A stretch of DNA of 47,934 nt from a virus (IMGVR_UViG_3300033153_006421:1-47934), one strand, 5' to 3'; shown: positions 5,986 to 35,224, counted from the first letter of the stretch. Notes: generated from the letters alone by a model not told the origin. Made by a program: numbers and translations.

Positions 5986-6004
5986 TGATAGGATAGTGGC
6001 ACTT

Positions 6005-18639: not shown

Positions 18640-18852
18640 TCATGCCGCTGTCGGCGGAAGTTGGTAGATGTGCCCGCCGGGCGCGAACGTGCGCTCGACG
18701 AGCCCGTCGGTGACCATCGTGTCGAGCACGGTGGCCGCTGCTCGCCGGTCGACGAGCTGGAACGTGTTGGCGACCTGGGCGCGGGTCAGGGGCTGGCGCC
18801 GCTTGAGCACCGCCCGGATCAGGTCGCGGTAGTCGCTGGCGTAGAGTCTCAT
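18640..18852 (-). CDS. small winged-helix DNA-binding protein
   Basis: A 70-residue protein: helix, then LTRAQVANTFQLVDRRAAAT (helix-turn-helix), LDTMVTDGLVER and a short wing GGHIYQL. This is the compact winged-helix layout of phage regulators. The ATG at 18852 follows AGGAG and overlaps the upstream stop by 4 nt. Likely a transcription regulator; target unknown. Confidence 0.6.
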   Translation of the reverse strand: MRLYASDYRDLIRAVLKRRQPLTRAQVANTFQLVDRRAAATVLDTMVTDGLVERTFAPGGHIYQLPPTAA

Positions 18853-19061: not shown

Positions 19062-19537
19062 CGGACCGCCTCCGCGATGCGCTGGTCGATGAGCGCGACG
19101 ATGCAATCGGCGGCGTCCGTGCCCACAACCCGGAGTAGCGGGGCCATCGGGTCGCGGCCCCGGGCCACCTCGCTGCAGTCGTCCACCTTCCGATCGCTAC
19201 TCATGGCCGGGGGCGTCTCGATGGCGGTCTGCCGATCGTGCTCCCACCGCGCCGCGTACCGGATGACCTCGGCGATGCAGGCCGCCTTGCTCGGCCAGCC
19301 GGCCATGCCGAAGTCGTTACCCCCGAGCGTGGCCTTCCAGAGCCCGCCGGGGTGCTGCACGAACGCCAGGGTCTCATCGAGCAGGCCCTTGGCTACCTGC
19401 ACGAAGGGCTCCAAGTCCCTGTTGACCAGTGCCTCGACACGCTCGAGGGTGGTCTCCCTCTTGCCTATGCCCGCCGCGTCGAGCAGGGCGTGCATCTTGC
19501 GCAGCTCTTGCTGCGCCTGCGCGAGGGGGCCGATCAT
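19058..19537 (-). CDS. hypothetical helical protein
   Basis: A 159-residue, largely helical protein with N-terminal QAQQELRKMHALLDAAGIGK and a terminal segment CIVALIDQRIAEAVR. Start 19537 from the 4-nt overlap with the upstream gene. No motif recognised. Between two likely DNA-binding proteins in the operon. Confidence 0.6.
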   Translation of the reverse strand: MIGPLAQAQQELRKMHALLDAAGIGKRETTLERVEALVNRDLEPFVQVAKGLLDETLAFVQHPGGLWKATLGGNDFGMAGWPSKAACIAEVIRYAARWEHDRQTAIETPPAMSSDRKVDDCSEVARGRDPMAPLLRVVGTDAADCIVALIDQRIAEAVR

Positions 19538-19710
19538 GGCTTCACCCCGAACTCGATCTCGAGCGCATCGACGCCGCGCTCCACCGCCATGCGCATCACC
19601 GCGGTGAGTGAGATGCGGTGGGACGGCAAGGCCGCGGTCACCGCGGGGACCAGGCGCTCCAAGCGGGCGCGCAGCTTGGGGGCCAAGCGGAGGGGGATCG
19701 GGTGGCTCAT
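19534..19710 (-). CDS. ribbon-helix-helix regulator
   Basis: A 58-residue protein: a beta strand IPLRLAPKLRARLERLV followed by two helices including ISLTAVMRMAVERGVDAL, the Arc/MetJ ribbon-helix-helix plan. Such dimers bind short palindromes. It is the best candidate in the window for the protein recognising the palindromes near 27.3, 32 and 35 kb, but this link is only a guess. The ATG at 19710 overlaps the resolvase stop and follows GGAG. Confidence 0.6.
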   Translation of the reverse strand: MSHPIPLRLAPKLRARLERLVPAVTAALPSHRISLTAVMRMAVERGVDALEIEFGVKP

Positions 19711-20195
19711 CGTTGTCGGCTCCATCGGACTGCTCCATGCTCTCTGAGGTAGTGGGCGCCGATGCCGATGGCATCCCACCCGTCGTGTGTGGTACGCGGG
19801 GCTACCCGCTGAAGCTCGTCTGTGGTGAGGATCTCTCTGAGGTAGTCGTGCTCGACGTCTTTGGGCCGGCTGCCCTTCCACTGGCTCGGCTTGTACCCGA
19901 CGCCAGGACAGGGGAGCATGCCCAGCACATAGCCTCCGACGCCCTGCAGCTGGAGCATGGCATCGAGCTTCGCCCCTGTGGTCCTGCGGTCGCGCTGCAT
20001 CTCCTCGATGACAGCCACGTCCACAGGGGCGAAGGGGTCCAGAGCCAGGCCGACCTGCCGCGCTGCGCGGTGCCAAGCCGGCGGGCCTGTGTCGGTACCG
20101 GGGCTGCGGACCGTGCAGGCATGGACCAGCGCGTCGTGGTGGAAAACGGCTAAACCGAGTTTGCGCAGGCCGGGGTCGATAGCGACGAGGATCAT
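19707..20195 (-). CDS. RuvC-like Holliday-junction resolvase
   Basis: A 162-residue RNase H-fold nuclease. MILVAIDPGLRKLGLAVF supplies D7, VAVIEEM supplies the Glu at about 64-65, and THDGWDAIGIGAH supplies D138 and D141: the four acidic residues of RuvC with the same order and spacing. QWKGSRPKD (about 105-113) fits the RuvC loop before the last motif. Likely resolves branched replicating phage DNA before packaging. Coupled on both sides by ATGA overlaps. Confidence 0.85.
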   Translation of the reverse strand: MILVAIDPGLRKLGLAVFHHDALVHACTVRSPGTDTGPPAWHRAARQVGLALDPFAPVDVAVIEEMQRDRRTTGAKLDAMLQLQGVGGYVLGMLPCPGVGYKPSQWKGSRPKDVEHDYLREILTTDELQRVAPRTTHDGWDAIGIGAHYLREHGAVRWSRQR

Positions 20196-21117: not shown

Positions 21118-21281
21118 GAGACACCTCCCTCTTGGGCCTTTGCGGCTTCGAGTGCCGCGACGCGCTGCTCCAGATCGCCGAGAGACACTCGCAGTTTCTC
21201 TACTTCCTTCTCCCGCTCTTTCGCGATCTCTTCCTGCAGTCGACGTAGATCGCCCCACTGGACATCGTAGAAGTTGCTCAT
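21114..21281 (-). CDS. 55-residue coiled-coil protein
   Basis: It begins MSNFYDVQWGDLRRLQEEIA and continues as an uninterrupted Glu/Lys/Leu heptad helix to GDLEQRVAALEAAKAQ. Both ends make 4-nt overlaps with the polymerase gene and the next gene. Directly after the DNA polymerase, it could be a small partner or dimerisation peptide; untested. Confidence 0.6.
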   Translation of the reverse strand: MSNFYDVQWGDLRRLQEEIAKEREKEVEKLRVSLGDLEQRVAALEAAKAQEGGVS

Positions 21282-23182
21282 GTTGGCTCCCAGGGAATCA
21301 GCTCGCCGTCCACCGTGACCGGCTTGGCGCCCTTGTACCAGCGGCGCATCGCGTGCGCCTCCACGCGGATTTTCACGTTGGGCGTCTCGACGCGCATGGC
21401 GGCGACCATGGTGTCAGTCAGTGCCCCCGCGAACACTGTCACCATGTCCTCGGGTACCTCGGCAATGATCTCGTCATGCACGAAGAGGACAGGCCGACAG
21501 CCTTGCAGGTCGCCCACGTAGCAGCGGTCGGCCAGGGCGAAGAGCGCACGCTTCGCGCCATCAGCGGCGGGGCCTTGGAACAAATTATTACAGCCTGGCG
21601 TGTAGGTGCAGCCGCCCCGCTTGCGTCCGCTGCGTGGCAATTCAAGGGTGAACGGGTTGCCGAACGGGTCCAGGTCGTTGACCCAGGAGAAGTGCTCAGC
21701 CATCTCGGGCCAGCGCTCCATCCACAGGTTCTTGAGCATCCAACCCTTCTGCTCCCTGGCGAGCAGCGCCTCGGGGATGCGGACCCTGTACGATGCCCAG
21801 GCGAAGGCGGCGAAAGAGTCAGGCCCCATCCCGCCAGGCAGGCCGAAGTTGGCCGCCTTGGAGAGCTGCCGCATGTCGATGAGCTTTTTGTCCCCGTCGA
21901 GGTACCGCGCGTAGGCGTCGTCATAGTACAGATTGAGCAGCGTGGCGGCCATGTGGACATGCGGGTCGAGCCCGTCATTGATGGCCTCGGCCAAGTCGCT
22001 CTTCCCGAACCGGTCGATGCACGACTGGGCCAGGGTGCACAGCTCGACGAACGAGTAGTCAGCGCCGACGAACACGAAGCCCGGCCGGGGCACGAAGCAC
22101 TCCCGGAGCCCGCCGCGGCGGTGGAGGTTCTGCGTGTTCGGTCTGTACGCTGACGTGCGCCCCGTCTCCATGATCGTGTTGTAGCTGTGGTTGATCGCCT
22201 TCTCGGTACCCAACCGGAGGTAGTCCCCCCACGACGAGATGATCTTCTCGGCGCCCGACTCGTCAGCATACGCCATGAGGTCCTTGTCGCCCGACCCGAG
22301 CAGCGACTCCGCATCGGTCTTGACGCTGCCGCCGGGAGTGGTCGGGACCTCCTTTCCTCGGGCCTCGTAGCCCTCGGCGCAGCGCCGCTTGAACTCGGCC
22401 ATGTTGCGCCCGAGCGCATCGTGGCGGTCGGCGCCCCTGCCCTTGCGCGTCCACTTGAGCAGCCCGGCATCGAGCAGCTTCTTCTCGACGGCTGCTTGCT
22501 CCTCGCCCAAGCCGGTCAGGAACGGCTCGACCAGGTCGCCATCGGTACGCAGCCCCCAGCAGGACATGAGGTGCAGCGCCCACGCTGCCTGGGCCTGCTC
22601 GATCTCGTTGACGATGAGCCCGTCCGCGGTCAGATAGTCGAGCTTCGCGGCGTATTCCGTCTGGGCTACGAAGATCCGGCGGGTCGCTGTGGCGTCGCCG
22701 ATGGCGTAGATCAACGCCTCATCGGGCCAGGACGACAGGGGCACGCCGTCCAGCTCTGCGTAGCGGAGCCTCCACGTGTCTTCGCCCTTCGCCATGGACA
22801 CGCCGAAGTGCCGCTCGGACAGGGCCGACAGCGAATACTTCGGGCGGTTGTTGTGGACGTGATCATAGGTCAGCCGCCCCTCGGAGAGCATGAGCAGCTG
22901 GTCGCGCACCTTCGTGTCGCTGACACGCCCGGCCGTGTACGCGGTGAAGATGGCTGGGAGTAGGTGCGGCGCCGCCTCGGCCAGCACGGCCATATCAAAG
23001 GCGACGTTGTGGCCGACGAACCGCACCGAGGGGTCCGCCAGCCACCGCTTCATCTTCTTGATCGCCGCATCCGCCAGCTCGATGTCTGCCTTGTCGCCCG
23101 TGTCGTAGGTCAAGCAGACCATCTTGGGGGCCAACTGTCCCGGCTCAATCAGGTAGGTCTCAGTGTCGAATGCGACGATCAT
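21278..23182 (-). CDS. family A DNA polymerase with 3'-5' exonuclease
   Basis: A 634-residue replicative polymerase. The exonuclease is intact: D6/E8 (AFDTETY), N59 and D63 (GHNVAFD), Y159 and D163 (YAIGD). Polymerase motif A is D375YSFVE380, motif B R438QLSKAANFGLPGG451, motif C H569-D570-E571. The motif B Tyr (Taq Y671) is Gly450, while the dNTP-selecting Phe is kept (F446). No 5'-3' nuclease domain. The ATG at 23182 is chosen because the exonuclease motif begins at residue 2; codons upstream belong to the previous gene. Its ribosome-binding site is weak. Confidence 0.93.
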   Translation of the reverse strand: MIVAFDTETYLIEPGQLAPKMVCLTYDTGDKADIELADAAIKKMKRWLADPSVRFVGHNVAFDMAVLAEAAPHLLPAIFTAYTAGRVSDTKVRDQLLMLSEGRLTYDHVHNNRPKYSLSALSERHFGVSMAKGEDTWRLRYAELDGVPLSSWPDEALIYAIGDATATRRIFVAQTEYAAKLDYLTADGLIVNEIEQAQAAWALHLMSCWGLRTDGDLVEPFLTGLGEEQAAVEKKLLDAGLLKWTRKGRGADRHDALGRNMAEFKRRCAEGYEARGKEVPTTPGGSVKTDAESLLGSGDKDLMAYADESGAEKIISSWGDYLRLGTEKAINHSYNTIMETGRTSAYRPNTQNLHRRGGLRECFVPRPGFVFVGADYSFVELCTLAQSCIDRFGKSDLAEAINDGLDPHVHMAATLLNLYYDDAYARYLDGDKKLIDMRQLSKAANFGLPGGMGPDSFAAFAWASYRVRIPEALLAREQKGWMLKNLWMERWPEMAEHFSWVNDLDPFGNPFTLELPRSGRKRGGCTYTPGCNNLFQGPAADGAKRALFALADRCYVGDLQGCRPVLFVHDEIIAEVPEDMVTVFAGALTDTMVAAMRVETPNVKIRVEAHAMRRWYKGAKPVTVDGELIPWEPT

Positions 23183-23186
23183 AGGC

Positions 23187-23654
23187 TCAGTCCGCCGGGT
23201 AGAAGAAGTGCTTCGTGAAGGCGCCACCGTTCTTGTTGGTCGCGCCCTGCGTTTCGACCTTGACCTTGTGCCCGGCCAACAGCTTGCCGCCATCGTCCGG
23301 GATGGGCTGGTCGTCGGCGTCGACTCCGCAAGCCGCCGCGGCCATCTCGTCGGTGATCTCCGTCTCGGGCACACCAGCGAGGCCGGCGAGGCAGGCGCGG
23401 GTATCGGCCAGGCCGAAGCCCCAACCGTCATCGAGGTTCGCGTAGAAGGTCAGCGTCGTGCCGACCATGTCCTCGTGCGTGGAGGACGAATCGACCCGGC
23501 CTTCCATGACGAACGCCTTCTTGCCGATCTTGCCCGGCTTCTTGCTGATGATGAGCTTGCACGCCACACACTCGAGGGTGCCGCGGAACTCGGGTGGGAT
23601 GTACTTGCCGCCGCTGCCGCCCTCGGCGTTCTTGATGTTGTCGAAGATGCCCAT
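23187..23654 (-). CDS. putative single-stranded-DNA-binding protein
   Basis: A 155-residue protein starting MGIFDNIKNAEGG. It is beta-rich (CKLIISKKPGKIGKKAFVMEG, TLTFYANLDDGW) and ends in a short FFYPAD. Proteins of this shape next to phage polymerases (DUF669-type) are thought to bind single-stranded DNA with an OB fold. The acidic SSB tail is lacking, so the role is inferred from shape and from neighbours. AGGAG lies 10 nt before the ATG. Confidence 0.5.
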   Translation of the reverse strand: MGIFDNIKNAEGGSGGKYIPPEFRGTLECVACKLIISKKPGKIGKKAFVMEGRVDSSSTHEDMVGTTLTFYANLDDGWGFGLADTRACLAGLAGVPETEITDEMAAAACGVDADDQPIPDDGGKLLAGHKVKVETQGATNKNGGAFTKHFFYPAD

Positions 23655-23699: not shown

Positions 23700-25331
23700 T
23701 TAGTCTGTAATCCACGAGGCCGCAAGAACTTTCTGCGCTTGGCCTGTCGTCTTCTGCACGTACTCCGCATCGGCCTGGGCCTTTCGCACGTCGGCGCGCA
23801 CTGAGTCGTGCACGTCGAACCAGTAGACCAGGATCTCATCGGAGGTCTGCCCGAGCCTGTGTGTCCGGCCCAGCAGCTGCTCCATCGTCGCCCCGCTCGG
23901 GGGCATGGAGGTCAGCACGTTCACCGACCACGCCTGCAGGTTGCTGCCTGTCCCATGACTCCGCACCGAGACCGCGAGCTGCCCGTCGGCCCCCTCGGGC
24001 ACGGGCGTGCCGACGGGCACCGAGGGGACGATGTCAGCCATGCCTTGGTGCATCGCCGTGGACACAGACCACACCAGGGCGGCGGGGTGACGCTCCAGCA
24101 GCTCGAGCACTGCGACAGCGATGAAGGGGTCGAGCCACACCGTCTCTACGGGCGGGGGGTCCTTGTGGCTGTGCTCCTGCCACGCTGCCCTGGCCTCCTG
24201 CGACTCGGCGTTGCCGCCCCCGTCGTCTACCCACGCCGCTACCTGGGCGGGGGTGTCGAGGCCACGGCGCCCCTGGCGGATGACGGCACGGACGGCGCGG
24301 TTCCACGCGTTGCGCGTCTGCATCCAGGGCAGGTCGGGCTCGCCGGGCCACGCCCACTCGTAGTAAAAACCCTGGAGCAGCTGCCGGCGGACTTGCGCCA
24401 GCTGCGCGGCGTCGGTGATCTCCACGCCAGCGGGGGACAGCCACCTGGCCTCGAGGCGATCAACGGCCTGGGCCACGACACCGGGCAGCTCGAGGGGGAC
24501 GCGACGGAACTCGATGCTCGCATCGCACGACTGGGTCGTGGTCATCAGCACGCCGGGGCTGTCGCGGAGCAGCTCGAAGAGGGCCGCCCGGGGGTCGCCG
24601 CCTTGGGCGATGGGGGCGTAGAGGCACTCGTCGTAGTGGGTCGGCTCGCCGCCCACATCGACACAAGCCGCCCACGCCTGCAGGTCGAGGTACTCCAGCG
24701 GCACGGGGCTGTGCTCGCGGAGGGCCAGCTCGACCAGATGCGCATAGTCCTTCAGGCTCCTGCTCGTGTAGGTGCCGCTCATGCCGACGAAGCGGGTGTC
24801 GGGGTGGTCGCGGAAGTAGCGGATGACCCGGCGTGTCCGCCCGGCCGTGCGGTGCCGCAAGGAGTGGCACTCGTCAGCGATGACCAGGTCGGGGGCGAGG
24901 GCGTCGAGCATCTCTGGGCGGCTGCTGATCTCCTCGTAGGAGCGCACGACCAGGGCGGAGTGGACGCGAAAGTGCGTCCGGAACTTGGCTATCTCCGTGT
25001 GGGTCTGCTTGCGCAGCCGGGCCGGGACCAGCAGGAGGGGGCGGCTGGCCTGCATCACAGTGGCGGCGATGGCGCTGATCAAGAACTTGCCGTGACCAAC
25101 GCCGACGATGCCGACAAAGCCGCCGAGCTGGCGGCACCAAAAGAGCGACTCCGCCTGGACGTCACGCAATGTATAGGTCCGAGTGAGCGTGACCTCGGCC
25201 CGGAGCCGGTCGAGGTCACGCCGTGTCGGCCTCCCGGACTTGCGAGGGAGCCCGAGGATGCGGACGGTCTGCCCTACCGGCGCGGGAGGTGCCTGCGCCG
25301 CATCCGAGCGGAGTCGCTCAAGGAGGTTCAC
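23700..25331 (-). CDS. SNF2-like superfamily 2 helicase
   Basis: A 543-residue helicase. A Walker A variant GVGHGK82 replaces GxGKT. Motif II is DECH (153-156), motif III SGTYTSRS (185-192), motif VI GRTHRLGQ near residue 494, typical of SNF2-type and phage DNA helicases. A central insertion of about 150 residues separates the two RecA lobes. GTG start overlapping the nuclease stop (GTGA). Likely remodels replication or recombination intermediates. Confidence 0.85.
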   Translation of the reverse strand: MNLLERLRSDAAQAPPAPVGQTVRILGLPRKSGRPTRRDLDRLRAEVTLTRTYTLRDVQAESLFWCRQLGGFVGIVGVGHGKFLISAIAATVMQASRPLLLVPARLRKQTHTEIAKFRTHFRVHSALVVRSYEEISSRPEMLDALAPDLVIADECHSLRHRTAGRTRRVIRYFRDHPDTRFVGMSGTYTSRSLKDYAHLVELALREHSPVPLEYLDLQAWAACVDVGGEPTHYDECLYAPIAQGGDPRAALFELLRDSPGVLMTTTQSCDASIEFRRVPLELPGVVAQAVDRLEARWLSPAGVEITDAAQLAQVRRQLLQGFYYEWAWPGEPDLPWMQTRNAWNRAVRAVIRQGRRGLDTPAQVAAWVDDGGGNAESQEARAAWQEHSHKDPPPVETVWLDPFIAVAVLELLERHPAALVWSVSTAMHQGMADIVPSVPVGTPVPEGADGQLAVSVRSHGTGSNLQAWSVNVLTSMPPSGATMEQLLGRTHRLGQTSDEILVYWFDVHDSVRADVRKAQADAEYVQKTTGQAQKVLAASWITD

Positions 25332-27199
25332 CCCTTGACCACGACGGCAGCTACAGATGTGAGGTACTGCGAGCAGTACACCCAGTAGGGGTTGTTGGTG
25401 TTGGCGACGAGGACGCTACCGCGCATGCCCTCGACGCGGAGCAGCGCCGCGACTTCCTTGAGGCCGTTGTTGTAGTCGAGCAGCAGGGGGTCGACCACCT
25501 TGTTGGCCTTGGCAACCTTCACCACCAGGGGGGCGATGAGGTCTTCGAAGGTCACGGGGCCGCTGCGCGGCTTGACCGGGGCGCAGTCGATATACAAGAC
25601 GTTCGCTGTGCCGAAGAACGAGGACACGGGGGGCTCGTCCTCGTCGACGATGACGTTGACCTCCTCGACTGCAGCCTTGACCTTCTCGACGATGGTAGCG
25701 GCTGCCCCCTCCGTGGCCTTCTTCACCGCGGTGGCGAGCACGTTGGGCTCGGACTCACCAGCCGCCGGGCCTTCGGCGTCCGGGGTGCCGCGTGCGTTGA
25801 CGGAGAGCAACACGCCACCGCCCTTCACGTAGAGCAGGCGCCCGTCGCTGAGGATGCACACCTCCTCGATGTGGGCCTTGGAGAGCCGGGCCAGGTTGAG
25901 GACCTCGCGGCACGCCTTGCTCGACTTGCTTGGGCTGAGGTTCTCCACATCGCTGGACTGGCAGAGCGAGACGAGCGCGTCGGCGCACAGCTTGTACTCG
26001 GTGTCGGTGCGGCGGCTGGCCTGCTTGATCGGCTCTTCGACGCGCTCCGCGGGGGGCGCCGCCTGAGGCTCGTCGGCCGGGGGCGTGACCACGGGGTCGT
26101 CGACCGCGGGGGCCTCGGCTGCCGCTGCCTGCTTGGCCTTCAGCTGCTCGAGGAGCGTGCCGCCCTTCGGGGGGTTGATGCCCTCGGCGCGGGCGTGCTC
26201 GACTGGCTCCGCCGAGGGCGGCTCTTCGGCCGGCGGCTCGGGGGTCTCGGCGCCGTCGACATCCTCGGCTTCACGGAGCAGTGCGAGCAGCCCGGGGGCC
26301 TCGTCCTTCCACGTGTCCTTGGGGTAGTCGTCCACCAGGAGGCGGGCGATCTGGTCAGCCTCGTGAGCGGTGGCGGGAGGGTTCGCGCCGTGCTTGGTCA
26401 CGGCTTGCTTGGCGATGAGGAGTCGAAGGTCGGCCACGGTATCTCCGGTGGGAAGTCCAGCGAATGCGCTGGTTTTGGGTGATGCGGTCTTGCGCAGTGC
26501 CTGGCAGATGGGGGAAAACTGGCAGCCGCCGAAGGCACTGCACGCGGTCCAGTTGGGTTCTGTTTCCTCGATGCCAGTTGCCCGGCTGAGGCCGACCATC
26601 TCGAGGGCAGTCGGCTGAAAATAGTTTTCCCACTGCTTCTCGAGGTCGCTGCGATCGAGCACGACCGAGACCTTGCGGGCCTGCAATCGGCCCCGCGTCT
26701 GGGTCTGCAGATGTCGCACACGGCAGCGGTCGGACTCAGTGAAGCGACACGCGTACAGCGCGTAGGGCACCATCTGCACGTCAGTGCGGAGACTCTCTTC
26801 GGTGCTGCCCCACTTCATGATATCGGAGGAGGTCTTGTAATCATCGACGCTGGGAAGAATGAGCTTGCGACAATCGAACACGTCGATGTAGCCCATCATG
26901 GGCAGGGCGATGTCGGCAAGATCAATCCGGTGCTCGAGGGAGATGTTCCCCTCGATGTAGTCCCGCTTGAGATCCTCCACGTACGGTGTGAGCTTGTTGG
27001 CGATGGCGCTGTGGTTCGGGGTGATCTCGGGGAGGGGCATGCCGGCGACGTACGCCTCGAGCCAAGCGTGTACGTTCTTGCCGGTGGTCTGCGCGGCGCT
27101 GTCCGGCGGCCTGGGCTGGTTGGTACACTTGTCGATGTACCACTTGCGCCGGCACAGCGAGAAGGTCTTGAACTGGCTTGGCGATGAGTGGCGGGGCAC
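25328..27199 (-). CDS. PD-(D/E)XK (Cas4/RecB-like) nuclease fused to a C-terminal domain
   Basis: A 623-residue protein. Residues about 5-235 are the nuclease: SPSQFKTFSLCRRKWYID, H44, GYIDVFD (D106), VDDYKTSSD (D120, K122) and Q142. C16 with C220, C226 and C232 gives the four-Cys iron-sulfur cluster arrangement of Cas4/AddB. A Pro/Ala/Glu-rich linker (about 315-415) leads to an unrecognised C-terminal domain (about 430-623). The GTG at 27199 has a GGAGG site and starts right at the nuclease motif. Likely end-processing in recombination. Confidence 0.8.
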   Translation of the reverse strand: MPRHSSPSQFKTFSLCRRKWYIDKCTNQPRPPDSAAQTTGKNVHAWLEAYVAGMPLPEITPNHSAIANKLTPYVEDLKRDYIEGNISLEHRIDLADIALPMMGYIDVFDCRKLILPSVDDYKTSSDIMKWGSTEESLRTDVQMVPYALYACRFTESDRCRVRHLQTQTRGRLQARKVSVVLDRSDLEKQWENYFQPTALEMVGLSRATGIEETEPNWTACSAFGGCQFSPICQALRKTASPKTSAFAGLPTGDTVADLRLLIAKQAVTKHGANPPATAHEADQIARLLVDDYPKDTWKDEAPGLLALLREAEDVDGAETPEPPAEEPPSAEPVEHARAEGINPPKGGTLLEQLKAKQAAAAEAPAVDDPVVTPPADEPQAAPPAERVEEPIKQASRRTDTEYKLCADALVSLCQSSDVENLSPSKSSKACREVLNLARLSKAHIEEVCILSDGRLLYVKGGGVLLSVNARGTPDAEGPAAGESEPNVLATAVKKATEGAAATIVEKVKAAVEEVNVIVDEDEPPVSSFFGTANVLYIDCAPVKPRSGPVTFEDLIAPLVVKVAKANKVVDPLLLDYNNGLKEVAALLRVEGMRGSVLVANTNNPYWVYCSQYLTSVAAVVVKG

Positions 27200-27201
27200 G
27201 G

Positions 27202-27282
27202 CTACGCCTCCCCCTCGATGATGCGCATCGCCAGGGAGGGCACGCCGAAGGCGGCGAGCAGGAGGATTGCGCGGAGGTTCAT
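27202..27282 (-). CDS. 26-residue leader micro-protein heading the replication operon
   Basis: It encodes MNLRAILLLAAFGVPSLAMR plus IIEGEA, looking like a signal peptide or single membrane helix, with a strong AAGGAG site 7 nt before the ATG and the stop 2 nt before the nuclease GTG. It is the first frame after the 27.3-kb promoter. Either a membrane peptide or a translational leader that opens the nuclease start site. Confidence 0.5.
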   Translation of the reverse strand: MNLRAILLLAAFGVPSLAMRIIEGEA

Positions 27283-27304
27283 GGTGTTCTCCTTGTCTAC
27301 AGGT

Positions 27305-27350
27305 CTTATACTCTGGTAGCCTATCTGTAGTCAAGGGCCTATTTCAAATA
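27305..27350 (-). promoter_or_regulatory. promoter and operator of the 18-27 kb replication operon
   Basis: On the minus strand TTGACT (27334-27329) and TATAAG (27310-27305) are 18 nt apart. The spacer carries CAGATAGGC, and just upstream of the -35 is the palindrome TATTTCAAATA (27340-27350). Both belong to the motif family repeated near 32 and 35 kb, so this promoter is probably controlled by the factor binding there. Confidence 0.65.
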
Positions 27351-27352
27351 AG

Positions 27353-29365
27353 CTACGTGGTGCCTGGCCTCGGCTTGCGCCAGAGCCGCTCGCGCTTGCC
27401 GCCGATACTCTCCTGCCTCACCCGCTCGCAGCCCAAGCGCCGTAGTGCCTCGGACACCCCCGTGCTGTGGCGGCGGATGTCGCTGCGTGGTACCCGCAGC
27501 GCGCCGATGATGGCAGCGCTCAAGCCGAAGGTTGGCTGGGGGTAGTCGCGCAGCCACCGGAGCAGCATCGCGTCATTCGTATCCTCGGCGCGGAACTCGT
27601 CGTTGCTGATCTCGCGCTCGACATCCAGGGCGTCGTCAAGATGCCACGGCTCCTTGGCCTTGAAGCGGTGAGCCGCCTCAGCCCACAGCTGGTCACGGAG
27701 CGCCTCCACCCAGTCGGTATCGATCCGCTCCTCGTTGACCCGCACCGCCCAGAAACGACGGTCGCCGGTCGGGTCAGTCAGCGGGTACTCGTCGTTGGAC
27801 GAGCCTACCAGGATGCTGTGCCGGGGGTACTCCTCGACGGTGCGTCCGTAGGGCGGGCGGTAGGCATCGGTGCGCCGGGTGATAAAGGCTTTGGCCCGGT
27901 TGCGATCGGCGCGGGCGAAGCTGTTCATCTCGCCGACCTCGAACCCCCACGTGGTCGCGAGCTGCATCGCAGCGGCGACGGGGTTGGACAGGTCGAGCTC
28001 CTCGTCGAGGAACCAGCGGTCAGAGAAGAGCGCGCGGTACATGCTCGACTTGCGGGTGCCTTGCTTGCCGACGAGCAGCAGGACCGTGTCGACCTGGCAG
28101 CCCGGGGTCAGCGCGCGGGCCACGGCGGCGATGGCGGTCTTTGCGCCGTACGCCCTATGCAGCGGGGTGTCGGGAATGCCGGCGGCGCGTATCAGCCAGC
28201 CGTCCAGCCGGGGCTGGCGGTCCCACTCGAGGTCAGCGAGGTACTCCTGGACCTGGTTCGTGGGGTTCTCGTGGGCGACCATGGTTGTAGCCTCGGCCGC
28301 GTGTGTCGCGAAGGGCTCGAACCCGTAGGTGTCGTGTATGGCGATGCGCAGGGCCAGGAGGTCGTGGTCTTTGATGGGCTTCCCGCCGAGGGTGATCTGG
28401 CGCAGGAACTCATCGTACCGGAGCCTCCCGGCGTAGCGGCTGTCGCGGCGCAAGGCGCGCGTTGTGTTGGTCAGGTTCGTCTTGGGTGTGCCGCTCTGCG
28501 TGAGCGCGAAGGCCAGGGCGGGGTTGTCGGTCCAGCTGGTCTTGCAGGTGGAGCAGCTCACGAAGGCCCGGCCGTCGCTGCGCCGACCTATGAAGGCGCT
28601 GGGCGTGCCGTCGTCGTGGAAGGGACAGCAGATGCTGAGCTTGTCCTCGACGGTCTCCGCCAGCTCGGCCAGCGTGATGCCGTAGTCAGGCAGGTTGATC
28701 TCGGCGAAGTCGCAGAGCTTGCGCATCTGGATGCGGCTGGCCGCGTTGCGCATCGGTGCGGGGATGTCAATGCCCGCCGCCCACGCCTCGAGGGCCGTGC
28801 GATCTGTGCGGGTGTGGGTGCGTATGACCGTCTGGTAGCGGCTGCCGTGATGCGCGCCGCCCACCCGCATGCGGCGGGAGGGGTTGATCGCGGTGGCGTC
28901 GCCTTCGATAGCGTGGCACACCGCGGCCATCACGTTGCGCCACTGCGCCTCCTCGGCCATGGTCCAGGGGTTGGCCTGGAGCCGCCAGAAACAATGGATG
29001 GACCGGCCGGGGCTGGCGCCTTGGGGGCGGTCGTCGCCGGACAGGACCACCGCGGTGGGGGCCGGCATGCCGTGGGCGATGGCCCGGTCGAGGCGCTCGA
29101 GCTGCTCGGGGATGGTGCCGTGGTCGGCCTCGGCCCACACGGCGGGGAGGTCGAGCACGGCTTGGCGACCGATGCCCTTGCCGCTGGCTGGCATCTCTAC
29201 GTCAGGCCGGATGCGGGCGGGCGTCCAGTAGAGCCCGTCCTTTTGATGCCAGGTGCCTTCGGCGTCCCTGGTGCTGATAGTGCCGCACCAGTGTACGTCT
29301 TCGGGGTCACTGAGGAGACGATCAAACTGGGCAGAGGTGACCGCGCCGAACTGCATCATTGTCAT
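27353..29365 (-). CDS. primase-helicase (AEP-like N-terminus, VirE-type SF3-like ATPase)
   Basis: A 670-residue protein. Residues about 60-200 resemble a primase-polymerase (SIHCFWRL with H124; CHAIEGDATAINPSRRMRVGG). A zinc site follows (CCPFH 246-250; CSTC 271-274). The C-terminal helicase has Walker A G433KQGTRKSS (Arg where Gly is usual), Walker B WGFEVGEM (E476/E479), and GSSNDEYPLTDPTGDRRFW with sensor N524 and Arg finger R536/R537. It should prime and unwind the phage origin. ATG at 29365 follows AGGAG; the frame is open upstream without a site. Confidence 0.85.
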   Translation of the reverse strand: MTMMQFGAVTSAQFDRLLSDPEDVHWCGTISTRDAEGTWHQKDGLYWTPARIRPDVEMPASGKGIGRQAVLDLPAVWAEADHGTIPEQLERLDRAIAHGMPAPTAVVLSGDDRPQGASPGRSIHCFWRLQANPWTMAEEAQWRNVMAAVCHAIEGDATAINPSRRMRVGGAHHGSRYQTVIRTHTRTDRTALEAWAAGIDIPAPMRNAASRIQMRKLCDFAEINLPDYGITLAELAETVEDKLSICCPFHDDGTPSAFIGRRSDGRAFVSCSTCKTSWTDNPALAFALTQSGTPKTNLTNTTRALRRDSRYAGRLRYDEFLRQITLGGKPIKDHDLLALRIAIHDTYGFEPFATHAAEATTMVAHENPTNQVQEYLADLEWDRQPRLDGWLIRAAGIPDTPLHRAYGAKTAIAAVARALTPGCQVDTVLLLVGKQGTRKSSMYRALFSDRWFLDEELDLSNPVAAAMQLATTWGFEVGEMNSFARADRNRAKAFITRRTDAYRPPYGRTVEEYPRHSILVGSSNDEYPLTDPTGDRRFWAVRVNEERIDTDWVEALRDQLWAEAAHRFKAKEPWHLDDALDVEREISNDEFRAEDTNDAMLLRWLRDYPQPTFGLSAAIIGALRVPRSDIRRHSTGVSEALRRLGCERVRQESIGGKRERLWRKPRPGTT

Positions 29366-29397
29366 GTGGTGGCTCCTGGTGTGTGGCGAGGTGATGC

Positions 29398-29414
29398 CGG
29401 GGGAGCTACCCCCG
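29398..29414 (-). promoter_or_regulatory. GC hairpin upstream of the primase-helicase gene
   Basis: CGGGGG and CCCCCG pair around AGCTA at 29398-29414, in the 128-nt gap before the primase-helicase gene. No U-run is present. It may insulate or protect the downstream message. The same gap holds an 18-codon ATGA-coupled frame (29441-29497), too weak to call as a gene. Confidence 0.4.
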
Positions 29415-29493
29415 ACGCTCACCACATGAGCATAGACAGCCTACTCCCTGGGCGGGCCGGGAGCAACCTGCTGGGCATAGCGCCGGGCGGTCC

Positions 29494-29814
29494 TCATGGT
29501 ACGTCCTCGCAGTCAGGGCGTGCGTCAGGGGAGCAGGGGCAGCGCGCCCACGCCAGGTGCCCATCGGCGATCGGGGGCACCAGCTCGCAACGGGCCGCTA
29601 CGGGGTCTGTGCTGGCCCGGGGCTGCTCGGGGTGCTGGCGTGCGGCGAAGCCCCCGCCGAGGGAGCCCGCCTGTGGTGGCGGCGGCGGGGCGTGGGGGCG
29701 GAGGAGCAGCGCCTCGAGCCAGCGTACGGTGGGTTCGGTGTTGCCGAGGCGGGAAGACTTGGCGATGACGAGGGCGTTGCCGCACATGCGCTGGTCGTCG
29801 TCGGTCCACATCAT
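29494..29814 (-). CDS. hypothetical protein
   Basis: A 106-residue protein beginning MMWTDDDQRMCGNALVIAKS, with a Pro-rich middle and a C-terminal Cys group (CEL...CPCSPD...CEDVP). The ATG at 29814 overlaps the previous stop (ATGA). No family recognised. Confidence 0.55.
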   Translation of the reverse strand: MMWTDDDQRMCGNALVIAKSSRLGNTEPTVRWLEALLLRPHAPPPPPQAGSLGGGFAARQHPEQPRASTDPVAARCELVPPIADGHLAWARCPCSPDARPDCEDVP

Positions 29815-29996
29815 GTCCTCTCCCTCCCTTGTGTGATGCAACCGCAAGACCACCGCCAACCGCCGTAGCCCCGCCACACGCGGAACCATCCGACAGGCGG
29901 CTCGTACCCGTCATGCTCTTGATCGGTCCGCGGCCACACCCTGTACGTGCCGCATCCAAGGCAGCGCGAGGCCGGCCGTATCTTCCGCCACCTCAT
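29811..29996 (-). CDS. small Trp-rich zinc-ribbon-like protein
   Basis: A 61-residue protein with CLGCGTYRVWPRT and WSCGCITQG forming a probable four-Cys site, and nine Trp residues. Coupled to both neighbours by 4-nt overlaps. Function unknown. Confidence 0.6.
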   Translation of the reverse strand: MRWRKIRPASRCLGCGTYRVWPRTDQEHDGYEPPVGWFRVWRGYGGWRWSCGCITQGRERT

Positions 29997-30220
29997 CGGT
30001 GCACCGGGACGATCCGACGGTCGCTGTAGGCACCGCCGCCGAGGGTACGACAGGATGCTCGGTCGTTGTGAAGGCAGCGGGCGGCGCCGGAGAGCGTGCG
30101 GTGGGTGTGGCCGCAGTCGCCCCGGACAGGGCCGGCGCAGACGTAGGGCGGTGCGGTGTGGCGGAGGCGGTCGACGGTGTCAGCGACGACCATGTCGCGT
30201 GGCCTGGTGGTGGCGGTCAT
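29993..30220 (-). CDS. small Cys-containing protein
   Basis: A 75-residue protein with the core CGHTHRTLSGAARCLHND, a pattern recurring in small phage proteins, possibly one metal site. ATG at 30220 from the ATGA overlap with the upstream gene. Function unknown. Confidence 0.6.
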   Translation of the reverse strand: MTATTRPRDMVVADTVDRLRHTAPPYVCAGPVRGDCGHTHRTLSGAARCLHNDRASCRTLGGGAYSDRRIVPVHR

Positions 30221-30372
30221 CGGCTGGGCTCCTCGGCGGCGGCGGGCCACATGACAGGTGCGTCCTGGGCGTAGGTGACGATGGTGCTGGCGACCATGAT
30301 GCCGATCATCGCGGCCAGGCCGTACAGATAGATGGCGTGCTCGAGGCGGGCGGCGGGGTCGGGGCGGGTCAC
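30217..30372 (-). CDS. 51-residue membrane protein
   Basis: A GTG start (VTRPDPAARLEH), then one membrane span AIYLYGLAAMIGIMVASTIV and an acidic end. It overlaps its neighbours by 4 nt on both sides. The start lies inside a 32-bp direct repeat shared with the next junction. Function unknown. Confidence 0.55.
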   Translation of the reverse strand: MTRPDPAARLEHAIYLYGLAAMIGIMVASTIVTYAQDAPVMWPAAAEEPSR

Positions 30373-30389
30373 GAGGTCACCTCGATGAG
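30358..30389. repeat. 32-bp direct repeat, copy 1, at a stop/start junction
   Basis: Identical over 32 bp to 30747-30778; a 16-bp partial third copy is at 30812-30827. It encodes the end LIEVTS of one gene and the overlapping start VTRPD of the next, and contains the 13-bp dyad CGAGGTCACCTCG. Confidence 0.85.
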
Positions 30390-30761
30390 CACACGGGCGA
30401 GGTCAAGGCGGTCGGCGTCGTCTGCCGTGCCTTGTGCCCACATGCGGAGAAGGTAGGGGAGCTTGCCGGGCTTGCGGATGAGGTACCCCTTGTCGTCCCA
30501 GCCGGCGAGGCATGCGAAGCGCAGCGCGTACCCGAAGCCCTGCGGGTCGTCGAGGTCAACGCGGAGCATGTGCTCTGACACGAGCCCGTCTGAGCTGCCA
30601 TCGTGGACGCTCCACTCTCCCGCGCTTGCGTGGAGACAGACAGCCTTGAAGCTCCTGCCAGGATGGGTGTCGTGGACAACGATCACCACCACTCCGCGAG
30701 CAAGCGGAATCGCCGGCATGATGTCCAGCCAGGTTTCGGTTTCGGCGTCGGGGCGGGTCAC
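30369..30761 (-). CDS. hypothetical protein flanked by direct repeats
   Basis: A 130-residue mixed alpha/beta protein with GTG start (VTRPDAETETWLD) and end LIEVTS. Both its start and stop junctions lie in copies of the same 32-bp repeat, so it may have entered as a cassette. No family recognised. Confidence 0.6.
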   Translation of the reverse strand: MTRPDAETETWLDIMPAIPLARGVVVIVVHDTHPGRSFKAVCLHASAGEWSVHDGSSDGLVSEHMLRVDLDDPQGFGYALRFACLAGWDDKGYLIRKPGKLPYLLRMWAQGTADDADRLDLARVLIEVTS

Positions 30762-30778
30762 GAGGTCACCTCGATGAG
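30747..30778. repeat. 32-bp direct repeat, copy 2, at a stop/start junction
   Basis: Second identical copy, 389 nt from the first, at the junction between the 30758 and 30369 genes, again encoding LIEVTS / VTRPD. The two copies bracket one gene. Confidence 0.85.
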
Positions 30779-31348
30779 GGTCAGGTAGACGGTGGCCTGG
30801 CGGCGCATACCGTCGGGGCGGGTCACGTCCATCACGGCGCGCAGCGTGACGCCGTTGTGGGTGAGGAGGACCGGCGTGGCCTTGTGCTGGTGGGCATACA
30901 GCTGGCGCATGACGCGGGCTTGTCTCTTGATCAGGGTGAGGGGCTGTCGCTTGGCCTTGGCCTGGGCCGCGGCGAGCTTGGCGGGGTAGGCGGCTTGGGC
31001 AGCGAGCAGCCGGGCGAGGGCCTTGTCACGGGCGAGGGTAGCGCGGGTCAGGGTGGCTGTGTGTCTGTCGCGGGCCTTGTCGGTGGTGGCCCCGTCGATG
31101 CGGCCCAGGGCGTTGTTGATGCGCGTGGCGATCTTGTCGAGGGCCAGGGCGCGGGAGGCGTCGTCGTCGCGGCGAGCGAGGCGGACCTCATTGAGGGCCA
31201 CGTCCACCGCGTGCTCGCTGTCAAGGGTCAGCTGGGTGTAGCCGAAGCTCACCACGGTGTCGGGGGTCCAGCTGATTGCGCGGAGGGCTGCGACGAGGGC
31301 GCCGGCCGTGGTCCAGCCGGGCTCGAGGAGGGTGGTGGGGGTGCTCAT
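30758..31348 (-). CDS. hypothetical helical protein, first gene after the control region
   Basis: A 196-residue, mostly helical protein rich in Ala, Arg and Lys (LDKIATRINNALGRI; TATLTRATLARDKALARLLA). No catalytic motif. It follows the leader GGAGATCACC-ATG shared by other early genes and is the first gene transcribed leftward from the repeat region, so it should be expressed early. Possibly DNA-binding from its basic helices, but unproven. Confidence 0.6.
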   Translation of the reverse strand: MSTPTTLLEPGWTTAGALVAALRAISWTPDTVVSFGYTQLTLDSEHAVDVALNEVRLARRDDDASRALALDKIATRINNALGRIDGATTDKARDRHTATLTRATLARDKALARLLAAQAAYPAKLAAAQAKAKRQPLTLIKRQARVMRQLYAHQHKATPVLLTHNGVTLRAVMDVTRPDGMRRQATVYLTLIEVTS

Positions 31349-32450
31349 GGTGATCTCCGAGGGGTGAGGGGCTACTCACGTCGTCAGTGTATAGCGCTCG
31401 TATACAAGGGGCAAGTCTTTATTTCTGCCCATGGTCGCTTATTTCAGCCCAGGGTCAGCTAAATCGAAAGCGTCGTGGGCCAGAGGATCACAGAGATATA
31501 GTGATTGCTGCATATCAGCGATATCCCCCGGCGAACCCGGCATATCATCTCCGCCCATGGTCAGTGAGACGCCGTAATGCAGGTTGAACCTGGGTTTCTT
31601 CTTATATGCCTACTCATGGTCTTAAATACAAAAAGGTAGGTACAACCTGTCTTATTAACCATATACATGTACTACTCATGGTAATTACACTGACTTGTAG
31701 GGCTGTGGTAGTATCGCATACTGAGGGGTCAGACCCGAGGGGGTAGGGGAGGTAAAGTCGGTGTTCTGACCCTGGGCGGAGCCGACAAATAGGCTAATAG
31801 TATAGGTTGTTCCTGGCTTATTGCCTATCTGGACCATGAGTAGCAGATAGTGAGAAGGCAGGTTGAACCTGGCTTATCGCGTCTCATGGTCCCGCCCATG
31901 GTCGGCTGACCCTGGGCGCGGATAAGGGCTGTTTTGGGCGATAAGCCTGGTCGCACCTGACAAATGCGTCGATTTGCAGATAGCCTATCTGATCAGCAAA
32001 TAGCTTAAATCGGAGGGTGCGGTCGAGCAGATAGGCTATCTGGGTAGGGGCGCTGCTTATCTGCAGGGAGGCGAGGCGATAGGGGACCGGGCTGGTCGGG
32101 TATCAGGGAGCGGGCGGGAGGGGGCGAGATCAAATAGCAGAGGCGGGGGTGCAAATAGGCTGACCTCCCCGAGTTATGTTAACTATTGCCCTTGCGTGCA
32201 GTGGGAGCGGGGGTGGAAGTGGACAGAAACTGTCCGGAACCACCCGGTCGTCCTCCCCAAGCGTGTTCAGTGTTGCAATGTGCAACATCGCCGAGCCACA
32301 TGACAAATGTGTCGCCGTTGAATAGCAGCAGCTATACAAATAGAGCCGCCGCTTGGCGCCTCGAGATGAAAGCGCCGCCCAACGGTGGGACAAATAGCGG
32401 CGACAACGGAGGAGCCGCCCACTATTTGCCCACCGTTGGGCGGCTATCTC
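31349..32450. promoter_or_regulatory. 1.1-kb non-coding control region with short repeats (possible origin)
   Basis: No convincing gene. It holds seven copies of CATGGT(C) (31427-31903), two exact CAGGTTGAACCTG palindromes (31580, 31859) plus two degenerate copies (31637, 31803), all followed by CTTAT, three TGACCCTGGGC copies, two 15-bp palindromes CAGATAG-N-CTATCTG (31977-31991, 32028-32042), six CAAATAG and one CTATTTG (31786-32428), and dyads GGACAG/CTGTCC at 32221 and TGTTGCA/TGCAACA at 32271. It is locally AT-richer than the genes. This combination fits a replication origin with iterons or a multi-operator control region. Confidence 0.65.
32374..32444. repeat. 23-bp near-perfect inverted repeat
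   Basis: The arm 32374-32397 is the reverse complement of 32422-32444 apart from one extra base, with a 24-nt loop. Each arm carries GCCGCCCAACGGTGGG and a CAAATAG motif. It begins 6 nt after the stop of the 32451 gene. It could end that transcript or form a cruciform at an origin. Confidence 0.85.
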
Positions 32451-33140
32451 TCAGGCGGTGATCAGCCGGGGGCCGTTGTCCGTGTCGACGGGCCAGCCAT
32501 AGGCCGCGTGGACGATGGCACAGAGCGCCGCGAAGTGCTGCCCGGAGAAGCTGTACCCGCCACCATCGATCCCGGCCAGGCGGTGCTCACGATAGGTGGC
32601 TACGGTGAAGCCGGCTGCCTGCAGCTGTTCGTCGGTGATACGATCGTCGGGCATGTATGCCCAGTTGTTGGCCCAGGGGTAGCCGTGCGGCTCGAAGCGT
32701 TCGTGGTCGAGCTGTCGGGCCACGTCTTCGGCTTCGTGCTCTTCGGTCCAGTAGTCGGTCACGTCGTCAGGCATGACGCCGTCCGCCCAAGGGCTGTAGT
32801 TCTGAGCCTCTGCGAAGCGTTCGTCGGTATTGGTGTCGACGATGATGTAGCGCTGCGCTGCTTCCTCGCAGCGCACGGCGTTATCTTCGTCATCCTTGCA
32901 GCAGACGGTAGGCTCATCCCACTCGGTGCCGCACTCGACGCAGACCCACACACCGGGCGACGTGATCTTGAACCGCTGATCCGGCGTGACTTCCCACTCT
33001 TCGGGGTTGTCCGTGTTCAGGAGATCCATCGGCAGGCCCGGCATGTAGTCGGCCATGAAGCGCGAGACGAACCGTTCAAAGGTGCGATCGGCGAAATTGC
33101 AGGCGTCAGGAACGAGGTCAGTGAGCTTGACGGTGGACAT
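32451..33140 (-). CDS. hypothetical early protein with GIDGGGY motif
   Basis: A 229-residue acidic protein starting MSTVKLTDLVPDACNFADRT. It has a CVECGTEWDEPTVCC metal-site-like segment (about 77-91) and the C-terminal motif GIDGGGYSFSGQHFAALC. The ATG at 33140 follows the shared leader CGGAGATCACC; the longer upstream frame has no site and foreign composition. A related LDGGGYAF motif occurs in the 34.0-34.8 kb gene. Function unknown. Confidence 0.6.
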   Translation of the reverse strand: MSTVKLTDLVPDACNFADRTFERFVSRFMADYMPGLPMDLLNTDNPEEWEVTPDQRFKITSPGVWVCVECGTEWDEPTVCCKDDEDNAVRCEEAAQRYIIVDTNTDERFAEAQNYSPWADGVMPDDVTDYWTEEHEAEDVARQLDHERFEPHGYPWANNWAYMPDDRITDEQLQAAGFTVATYREHRLAGIDGGGYSFSGQHFAALCAIVHAAYGWPVDTDNGPRLITA

Positions 33141-33228
33141 GGTGATCTCCGCTGGGTTCGACGCAAGAGCGCGTCCTATAGCCACAATATCCGCTGATAG
33201 TGTAGCTATCGGCTGGGCTCTGGCGGTA

Positions 33229-33720
33229 TCAGACGGGCCAAGCAGGCGCCCTGCCCGGATCGCCCGCAAGTGGGGGTTCGTGGCACACGGGGCACCCCAA
33301 ACGGCTGAGGATCGGAGGCTGGGCTGCGCCCCAGTAGGATCCGAACCAATCACATGGGCGATCCGAGTCGTCGACGTGTTCCGTATCGTCGCTACCGCTG
33401 CCCCAATACGCGAGCCAACCCGTAGCGGCGCGGATGATCTGGTCTGCCAGATCCCCACGGCCTGCTGCCCACTCGTCGACGTCGTCTCTTCCGCCGCTGA
33501 AAGCGTCGACGATCAGCGGGTCGGGGGTGAAGTCGAGATGGACGGCGCCGGGCTCGAGAAGCTCAGCCACGGTCACGGTTGCCCGTTGGATGTGCGGCGA
33601 GAAGGATCCGTTTTCGTCGGGCTCGCTCGCTTCGCCCCACTGTGCGATCATGACCTCGTCACCGCTGAGGTAGACGGACAGTCCGTGATCGGGGCCATGC
33701 GCATTGATGAGACAGGTCAT
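33229..33720 (-). CDS. hypothetical early protein
   Basis: A 163-residue acidic protein with a beta-rich N-terminus (MTCLINAHGPDHGLSVYLSG) and C-terminal CPVCHEPPL. ATGA overlap with the upstream gene. No family recognised. The 88-nt gap after it carries the dyad GATAG-TGTAG-CTATC (33196-33210). Confidence 0.6.
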   Translation of the reverse strand: MTCLINAHGPDHGLSVYLSGDEVMIAQWGEASEPDENGSFSPHIQRATVTVAELLEPGAVHLDFTPDPLIVDAFSGGRDDVDEWAAGRGDLADQIIRAATGWLAYWGSGSDDTEHVDDSDRPCDWFGSYWGAAQPPILSRLGCPVCHEPPLAGDPGRAPAWPV

Positions 33721-33929
33721 GACGACACCTCGCCCGTCTCCAGGACCGCAAGGCGCGCGATCAGGTAGCGCTCCTGGGCTTCCATGGTGCGACGGTAGGA
33801 CGCGCGGGAGCGGGTAGGGACCAACGACACAGGGGGCCAGATATCGGCGATGAAACCGGCGATCTCTTCGCGCGTTGACGTCAGGTTTTCGCGCACGCTG
33901 TCGGCGCTATTGAGATTGAGCATGCCCAT
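33717..33929 (-). CDS. small helical early protein
   Basis: A 70-residue protein, largely helical (SADSVRENLTSTREEIAGF; TMEAQERYLIARLAVLE). The start at 33929 follows the shared CGGAGATCACC leader. Coupled to the next gene by ATGA. Function unknown. Confidence 0.6.
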   Translation of the reverse strand: MGMLNLNSADSVRENLTSTREEIAGFIADIWPPVSLVPTRSRASYRRTMEAQERYLIARLAVLETGEVSS

Positions 33930-33971
33930 AGGTGATCTCCGTTGGTTTTGGCGCAGTGGCGCACCGTGCAG

Positions 33972-33991
33972 GCCCGGTCCCTTGACCGGGC
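33972..33991 (-). terminator. strong hairpin between two early genes
   Basis: GCCCGGTC (33972-33979) pairs with GACCGGGC (33984-33991) around CCTT, an 8-bp perfect stem placed just after the 34.0-kb gene. It may end or attenuate that transcript, although no U-run follows on the minus strand. Confidence 0.45.
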
Positions 33992-34006
33992 ATGCCCGTT
34001 GGGCCG

Positions 34007-34799
34007 CTACTCTTCGAGCCGATCCGCCAGTGCGTCCACTGCTGTGTTGAACGGTCCGATCGGGTCGCTGTCAGGCAGGCAGCCGGGGAAACACGACCAC
34101 CAATACCACCCGTCCATCTCCTTGGCGGTCAGTCCGGCCACTTCCGCGATATAAGCCCAGATCGATCCGTCCGTGTCGATCCACTCCTGCAGCTCCCTCT
34201 CGCCCATGTGGAATACCTCGCACCCGTTCGGCACGAGCGGCTCCGCGAGACATTCCGGGCACATGTCCACGGTTTCGGTCGCCATGATGAGGGCGACACG
34301 CTTGAAGCATGCGTCGCACTCGGGGCCGAGCGCGTACACCGCCCAGCTGCCCCGCCGGATCGCTCACGTTGCCAGTGAAGCGCCAGCCCTGAGGTTCGTC
34401 ACCATCGGCCACGCCGTAACAGTCGCACTCGTGATCGGACCCGTAGATGGTCCCTTGCGCTACGAGGATGCGCACGTCACCTTCCGAGTCGACGTAGTGG
34501 TCGGGCCAGTCGGTGCTGTGGCTTTCGATGTCCAGGTAGAGCACCGGGCAATCCCAGTCCCGCGCACCGTCCGGGTAGCCAAGGAAGTAATCCCAGTCGG
34601 GATCGTCCCATGCAACCAGCCCGTTCGTGTAGCCCAGCGCCTTGGCCACGGGGTCGATCGTCCAGTTGGTACCGTTCGGGTCCTGAGTGAGTGCGTCGCG
34701 TGTCTGCTCGAATGCGTACCCACCACCATCCAAGCCGTAGCCGATGGACGCGCGAGCGGCCGAGTAGGAATCGTATGTGTCTATGAGTGACTGTTTCAT
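34007..34799 (-). pseudogene. early gene split by a one-base frameshift
   Basis: The frame from 34799 encodes a natural-looking protein (MKQSLIDTYDSYSAARASIG, GLDGGGYAFEQ, DHECDCYGVADGDEPQGWRF) up to NVSDPAG near 34350. The natural-looking continuation then lies in the frame ending at 34007 (SWAVYALGPECDACFKR, MCPECLAEPLVPNGCEV, WYWWSCFPGCLPD). Removing one base from the CCCC run at 34350-34353 joins them as a 263-residue protein (DPAGSWAVY). The cause could be a real mutation, a sequencing error or a programmed shift. It carries the DGGGY motif of the 32451 gene and two CxxC pairs. Shared leader GGCTCCG-type start. Confidence 0.65.
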
Positions 34800-35224
34800 G
34801 GTGGGCTCCGTTGTTTGGTATACATACCTTATCCGGGCCTTCTCTTATCCGCCACCCCCTATTTGCAAATAAGGGCCTTCTCTTTTCGCCTATCTGTAGA
34901 TAGTGACCCTTCTCCCGCCGCGCAGCTGGGGCCTTATCCGTGGCTTACCCTCTCAAGGGGCTGGGCTGGCGCGGGTGTGGGGCCTCTCCCGGGGGCCAGG
35001 TGGGGTCCTCGAGTAGCGGGGCGGCGTGGGGCATCCCGCCTTTGACCCCCACCCTTTCCCCCTTCCTACGTGCCCCCGAGGTTTTCACCAAATTTCGCCC
35101 CTCACTATTTACAAATAGCCCACCCCCGCTAAGCCCCCGCTACACGGCCACCATAGCCCTATCCCCCTCACTATTTACAAATAGCAAGCCCCCGCTAAAT
35201 AGCAAGCCCCCCCAGCGGTCCGGC
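34800..35224. promoter_or_regulatory. 425-nt non-coding region with operator-like palindromes
   Basis: No gene seen. It contains TATTTGCAAATA (34860-34871), CTATCTGTAGATAG (34890-34903) and two CTATTTACAAATAG palindromes (35105-35118, 35171-35184) inside a direct repeat starting CCCCTCA, plus three TTATCCG words at 34829-34938. The palindromes share the CAAATAG half-site of the 31.4-32.4 kb region. It holds the promoter for the 34799 gene and the 3' side of the exonuclease gene. Confidence 0.65.

Follow-up and report, generated by a model that had tools for sequence, protein, structure and literature searches.

In phage P4, one short motif occurs at two separated cis regions, ori and crr, with the alpha primase-helicase as initiator, and iteron Rep proteins have single half-sites in their arrays and palindromic sites at promoters. 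In staphylococci, the Rep proteins of Staphylococcus aureus pathogenicity islands (SaPIs) and Cch2 of the staphylococcal cassette chromosome mec (SCCmec) bind short iterons downstream of their own genes, the Cch2 word being AAGTG, and the origins of SaPIs immediately follow the rep gene (PMC7581432). Iterons including inverted repeats are bound by RepA of phage-inducible chromosomal island-like elements (PLE) (PMC7145576), and phage SPP1 has two origin regions, oriL and oriR, about 13 kb apart, each with repeats and an AT-rich unwinding element (PMC6316719). A different kind of repeated site is found in mycobacteriophage L5, the stoperators of which are 13-bp asymmetric sites oriented with transcription (PMC9283540). 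Here, we describe a short repeat, CTAT[C/T]TG (family A), in the IMG/VR virus record IMGVR_UViG_3300033153_006421 (47,934 bases, 66% GC; this whole stretch is called the window), where it is clustered in the longest noncoding gap and recurs at two other noncoding regions. Judged from its sequence, the gap (31349-32450) is probably a replication origin and early control region.

The known kind that appears nearest to this gap is the iteron origin, as in SaPIs and P4. In common with SaPIs and SCCmec, the window has an array of very short repeats in the noncoding DNA near a primase-helicase gene, and in two relatives described below (L050 and L081), a VapE-type gene is directly followed by the array. 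However, the array of the window lies 2 kb upstream of its primase-helicase gene and includes three repeat families, and further family A sites occupy control regions about 4.5 kb leftward and 2.5 kb rightward of it. The motif also differs from that of P4 ori/crr. The combination of repeats and an AT-rich element is shared with the origin regions of SPP1 (gp38), although the helicase of the window is VapE-type, not DnaB-type. As in L5, one site family stands at several intergenic places of a phage genome; its members in the window are, in contrast, clustered, present in both orientations and often palindromic, and an assignment to L5-type stoperators was rejected. Arc and Mnt operators likewise consist of short half-sites in inverted pairs, and the window has a candidate ribbon-helix-helix-like gene at 19534-19725, although a model of its product matched none of the PDB folds.

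Distribution and arrangement of family A sites

On both strands of the window, the word CAAATAG was found 11 times, whereas 0.66 copies were expected, and 0/100 shuffles reached 11. Seven copies are in the gap, at 31786, 31997, 32131, 32152, 32337 and 32391 on the plus strand and at 32422 on the minus strand, exactly where an earlier note on this DNA had placed seven between 31786 and 32428; three more lie in 34791-35224. Since gaps are less GC-rich than genes, such numbers might be ascribed to chance or to the low GC content of intergenic DNA. Nevertheless, dinucleotide shuffles of the gap itself (n = 2000), which allow for its lower GC, gave 0.13 CAAATAG against 7 observed and 0.30 CTAT[C/T]TG against 13 observed, with neither count reached in any shuffle (0/2000 each). 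The claimed enrichment therefore holds both in the whole window and in the gap, and an origin by composition, already refuted by these shuffles, retains a practically negligible probability.

The CTATCT and CTATTT forms are one motif. The earlier note had listed CTATCT/AGATAG as a related form, and its sites (31977, 32028, 34890 and the 27.3-kb spacer) are present, but as copies of CTAT[C/T]TG and not of a separate word. Of the 21 copies of this motif in the window, 18 belong to noncoding DNA, which totals approximately 5.2 kb, and 3 to coding DNA; thus, within this record, the equal density in coding DNA that had been named beforehand as a refutation is not observed. Furthermore, an expectation-maximization motif search of width 8 ranked family A first, while at greater widths, G/C and A/T runs dominated.

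The arrangement of the sites varies between regions. The 31786-32428 array is formed mostly by single sites of mixed orientation, together with two everted pairs, CAGATAG-C/G-CTATCTG, at 31977-31991 and 32028-32042. On the contrary, palindromes with a 2-bp centre characterize the region at 34.8 to 35.2 kb: CTATTTGCAAATAA at 34859-34872 (one mismatch), CTATCTGTAGATAG at 34890-34903 and CTATTTACAAATAG at both 35105-35118 and 35171-35184. Three of them had been claimed earlier, the first as 34860-34871, while 34890, previously given merely as a related form, turned out to be a full palindrome. This region also contains CTTATCCG at 34828, 34844 and 34933 and 35-bp direct repeats at 35098-35132 and 35164-35198.

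At 27.3 kb, directly 3' of the VapE-type gene, family A sites overlap a promoter, TTGACT-18-TATAAG; the other two regions have only weak or unclear promoters. One copy, CTATCTG, occupies 27321-27327 inside the spacer, and the near-palindrome CTATTTCAAATAAG at 27339-27352 lies just upstream of the -35 box and contains TATTTCAAATA (27340-27350), reported before as adjoining that box. Between this promoter and the exonuclease gene, there is a 26-codon leader open reading frame (ORF) with its own Shine-Dalgarno sequence (27202-27282, minus strand). The top sigma70-like promoter of the window, TTGACT-17-TATATA at 17539-17567 (minus strand), shares TTGACTAC with the 27.3-kb promoter and is without a CTAT[C/T]TG site. 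Outside the three regions, CAAATAGTGATAGGATAGTGG at 5979-6010, at the end of a 1950-aa late gene and bordering the gap that separates two late genes, is possibly an isolated family A site.

Other repeat families and the AT-rich core of the gap

The earlier note had described one motif in the main cluster; at least two more families (B and C; Table 1), which it had overlooked, are present in the gap. Family B has a density of 9.1 per kb in the gap versus 0.26 per kb elsewhere. Additionally, repeated 10-mers form 47 pairs in the gap (shuffle mean 1.8, maximum 10), and repeated 8-mers reach a z of 17.6. The gap also holds the most AT-rich 100 bp of the record, the next-lowest separate segment having 45% GC. 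Families B and C surround this core, with B copies on both of its sides and within it, and the family A array starts 93 bp to its right. DnaA boxes (T[TG][AG]TNCACA) were absent from the window, and comparison of the gap DNA with phage records found no similarity.

These features bear directly on the interpretation of the sites as a phage regulon, which the earlier note had proposed. A shared DNA-binding protein is supported by the presence of one site family at three noncoding regions before leftward early genes and by the overlap with the 27.3-kb promoter, so a regulon is plausible. However, the main cluster does not seem to be only an operator region, because it includes families B and C and the AT-richest DNA and is close to the VapE-type primase-helicase gene (1984 nt away); an origin plus a control region is more likely than an operator alone. 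The composite reading, to which we give about an even chance, is that family A is the half-site of one phage protein at the three regions and that the 31.79-32.43 kb region is also an origin. A pure operator regulon, in which a small phage protein (ribbon-helix-helix, winged-helix or other) would bind family A sites to repress or activate three early promoter regions and the gap would not be an origin, is a possible but rather less probable explanation. It agrees with the site in the spacer and against the -35 box at 27.3 kb, with the palindromes at 34.86-35.18 kb and with the position of all three regions before leftward genes, but it leaves aside families B and C and the presence of the genome's most AT-rich DNA in the gap.

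The folding of the repeats was considered as well, since they could be hairpins of a structured noncoding RNA or transcription-termination elements. A very stable hairpin of about 30 bp (32373-32445, RNA z of -7.6), with CAAATAG paired in its stem, immediately follows the stop codon of the 32451-33140 gene and may be a terminator without a T-run, and the nested palindromes at 31977-32042 also fold strongly (z of -5.6). Nonetheless, the palindromes at 34.8-35.2 kb fold weakly (z of about -2), most family A sites are outside hairpins, both orientations occur and an Rfam search for known structured RNAs gave no match, which makes an RNA function of the repeats very unlikely.

Repeat arrays beside primase-helicase genes in relatives

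Relatives were gathered through an alignment of the DNA polymerase, which provided 80 viral loci and 3 bacterial-assembly contigs. Polymerase identity was mostly 30-42%, and the best value (44%) covered only a part of the protein. Two of these relatives, L126 and L127, are on contigs binned as Labilithrix (Myxococcota), a possible host group for part of the lineage. For the array test, noncoding gaps 250 bp or longer were scored in the 36 loci where a primase-helicase was identified and the flanking DNA was sufficient, and a repeat z above 7 marked a gap as repeat-dense. Among the repeat-dense gaps, 13/14 lay within 2 kb of the primase-helicase gene, compared with 26/82 of the other gaps (Fisher p = 2e-5); 9 of the 13 were upstream and 4 downstream of that gene, and most array-bearing relatives have the array directly adjoining it. 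The scores of L107 and L073 stem from tandem or long repeats. Signals in L054 and L078 were rejected as arrays because they are coding repeats, apparently pentapeptide-like in L054. L102 (10409-11129) also has a dense cluster of about 40 GCTGGCG repeats within 0.7 kb, not near an identified primase-helicase.

The repeat words are mostly private to each locus (TGATCCA, TGAGACA, AGTGAGTA, GGGTGCAC, TTAAAGAA, TTCCCGCC, ACTTTCGCC, CCGGATCA and AAGGTGTA), and most copies of a word are beside the helicase gene (6/6, 7/7, 9/9 and 8/9). The 80%-identical helicases of L050 and L081 go with related words, AAGTGATCC and AGTGATC. The array-associated helicases belong to several families (VapE, DUF5906, AAA_25 and DUF3987). 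Counting the window, the array gap contains the AT-richest 100 bp of its locus in 9/14 cases (0.34 expected), and in L050, L052, L065 and L066, repeats lie on both sides of the AT-rich core.

Since the repeat gap follows the helicase gene and not its orientation or family, an origin fits better than an operator. The arrays track the helicase gene even where, as in L074 and L081, they are 3' of it and the gene calls around them show no XRE gene, which is a further difficulty for a pure operator regulon. In its favour, an XRE regulator gene stands between array and helicase in several relatives (L065, HTH_3; L052, L069 and L064, by sequence), so that the arrays may also have a regulatory role.

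In another explanation, the VapE-type primase-helicase would bind the family A repeats as its origin iterons. By analogy with iteron Rep systems or P4 ori/crr, the palindromic sites at 27.3 and 34.9-35.2 kb would then serve either in autoregulation of this protein or as a second cis-acting element of replication. Single half-sites at the array with palindromes at promoters reproduce the arrangement of iteron Rep proteins, the array is near the primase-helicase gene as in relatives and the 27.3-kb sites, directly 3' of the VapE gene, are placed like the arrays of L050 and L081 and like SaPI origins. Against this, families B and C, rather than A, surround the AT-rich core, and the repeats of relatives are confined to one place. 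We consider this explanation improbable, below the pure operator regulon.

Several observations weigh against the composite reading itself. The array of the window is 2 kb upstream of the primase-helicase gene, with small genes between and no direct adjacency, and family A spans three regions while the arrays of relatives are confined, a pattern that families B and C fit better. No strong array is present in over half of the relatives. The test of gaps against primase-helicase genes used a home-made gene caller and gap statistic with thresholds set during the work, and a few gaps reach locus ends. Phasing of the family A sites on the same DNA face (10.5 bp) was not significant (p = 0.10). Searches of viral contigs with the primase-helicase or the 32451 protein returned no close relative. 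The exact palindrome CACTATTTACAAATAG and the everted site CAGATAGSCTATCTG gave 42 and 39 matches in viral contigs, scattered and without comparable arrays; thus, family A is not common to any identifiable phage set. Finally, no binder was identified, and neither of the two genes named in the earlier note, 19534-19725 and 18640-18852, could be linked to CTAT[C/T]TG.

Proposed mechanism and implications

The sites and their enrichment, the AT-rich core, the overlap with the 27.3-kb promoter and the association of repeat arrays with primase-helicase genes in relatives are observed; protein binding, the protein involved, origin function and the direction of regulation are inferred. Under the composite reading, one phage-encoded protein would recognise CTAT[C/T]TG half-sites at the three noncoding regions preceding leftward early genes. 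In the gap, an initiator, probably the VapE-type primase-helicase or a partner, would bind the repeats around the core, the AT-rich core would then melt and the helicase would load. At 27.3 kb, with one site in the promoter spacer and a near-palindrome against the -35 box, binding would shut off or modulate transcription of the exonuclease-helicase-PolA operon. The mostly palindromic sites at 34.86-35.18 kb would be operator-like elements before leftward early genes. The family A protein, which may be the primase-helicase itself or a small regulator, would couple origin firing to early transcription.

For the lineage as a whole, a modular origin can be suggested only tentatively, as an unlikely extension: the position of the array beside the primase-helicase would be kept while word and helicase family are repeatedly swapped, giving each phage a private origin code, and in the window the code word would have spread to early promoters, so that a single protein would connect replication with transcription.

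If the composite reading is right, the repeats show where replication is likely to start and early genes to be controlled in a phage lineage without an identified isolate. In this uncultured lineage, a good share of relatives have similarly placed arrays beside replication-helicase genes, each with a different word and usually around AT-rich DNA. They would constitute a set of natural helicase/repeat pairs with differing words, with which the gain and change of DNA specificity in phage initiator helicases could be tested, and likewise the possible linkage of origin firing to early transcription by a single protein.

Gene layout, candidate binding proteins and minor observations

Leftward early genes extend from about 35.7 to 13.4 kb, and the late genes, which run rightward, occupy the two ends of the window, up to about 13.4 kb and beyond 35.8 kb. 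The main features are listed in Table 1.

Table 1. Positions of repeat regions, promoter and genes considered in the window
Feature	Position	Strand	Remarks
Longest noncoding gap of the window	31349-32450	strandless	1102 bp; from gene calls
Family A array	31786-32428	both orientations	13 CTAT[C/T]TG half-sites
Family B array, [C/T]CA[T/G]GGT[C/A]	31429-31915	strandless	10 copies; GCCCATGGTC / CTACTCATGGTC / GCCCAGGGTCA
Family C, AGGTTGAACCT-type palindromes	31581-31958	strandless	4-5 copies: 31581, 31638, 31804, 31860 and degenerate 31949
Most AT-rich 100 bp of the record, like a DNA unwinding element	31594-31693	strandless	33% GC vs 66% mean
Second family A region	34791-35224	strandless	Palindromes, CTTATCCG copies, direct repeats
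Leftward promoter TTGACT-18-TATAAG	27305-27352	-	Second-best sigma70-like score in window; best in 27-36 kb
VapE-type primase-helicase (putative initiator helicase)	27353-29425	-	Pfam PF05272, E 4.9e-69; PDB 7pds, E 1.7e-21
PD-(D/E)XK exonuclease	25328-27334		Early leftward block
Helicase	23700-25331		Early leftward block
PolA-type polymerase	21278-23431		Early leftward block
Small ribbon-helix-helix-like protein (62 aa), candidate family A binder	19534-19725	-	Resemblance by eye
Winged-helix-like protein (70 aa), alternative candidate binder	18640-18852	-	MarR_2, E 0.005, below cut-off

For the first candidate binder, the match to a PHROG Arc-like repressor was weak (E = 0.0074) and used a longer ORF, 19534-20076; the 62-aa protein, modelled without an alignment, reached a modest predicted local distance difference test (pLDDT) value of 76.

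Two other leftward genes were observed. An acidic protein is read from 34799 (34007-34799, minus strand) and loses its character near 34350, with another frame onward (34007-34339), an apparent frameshift due to an assembly error or a broken gene. At 18189-18626 (minus strand), a match to the Acb2/Tad1 hairpin domain falls exactly at the Pfam cut-off (27.0 bits), and the protein is possibly a sponge against cyclic-oligonucleotide-based antiphage signaling system (CBASS) or Thoeris signalling.

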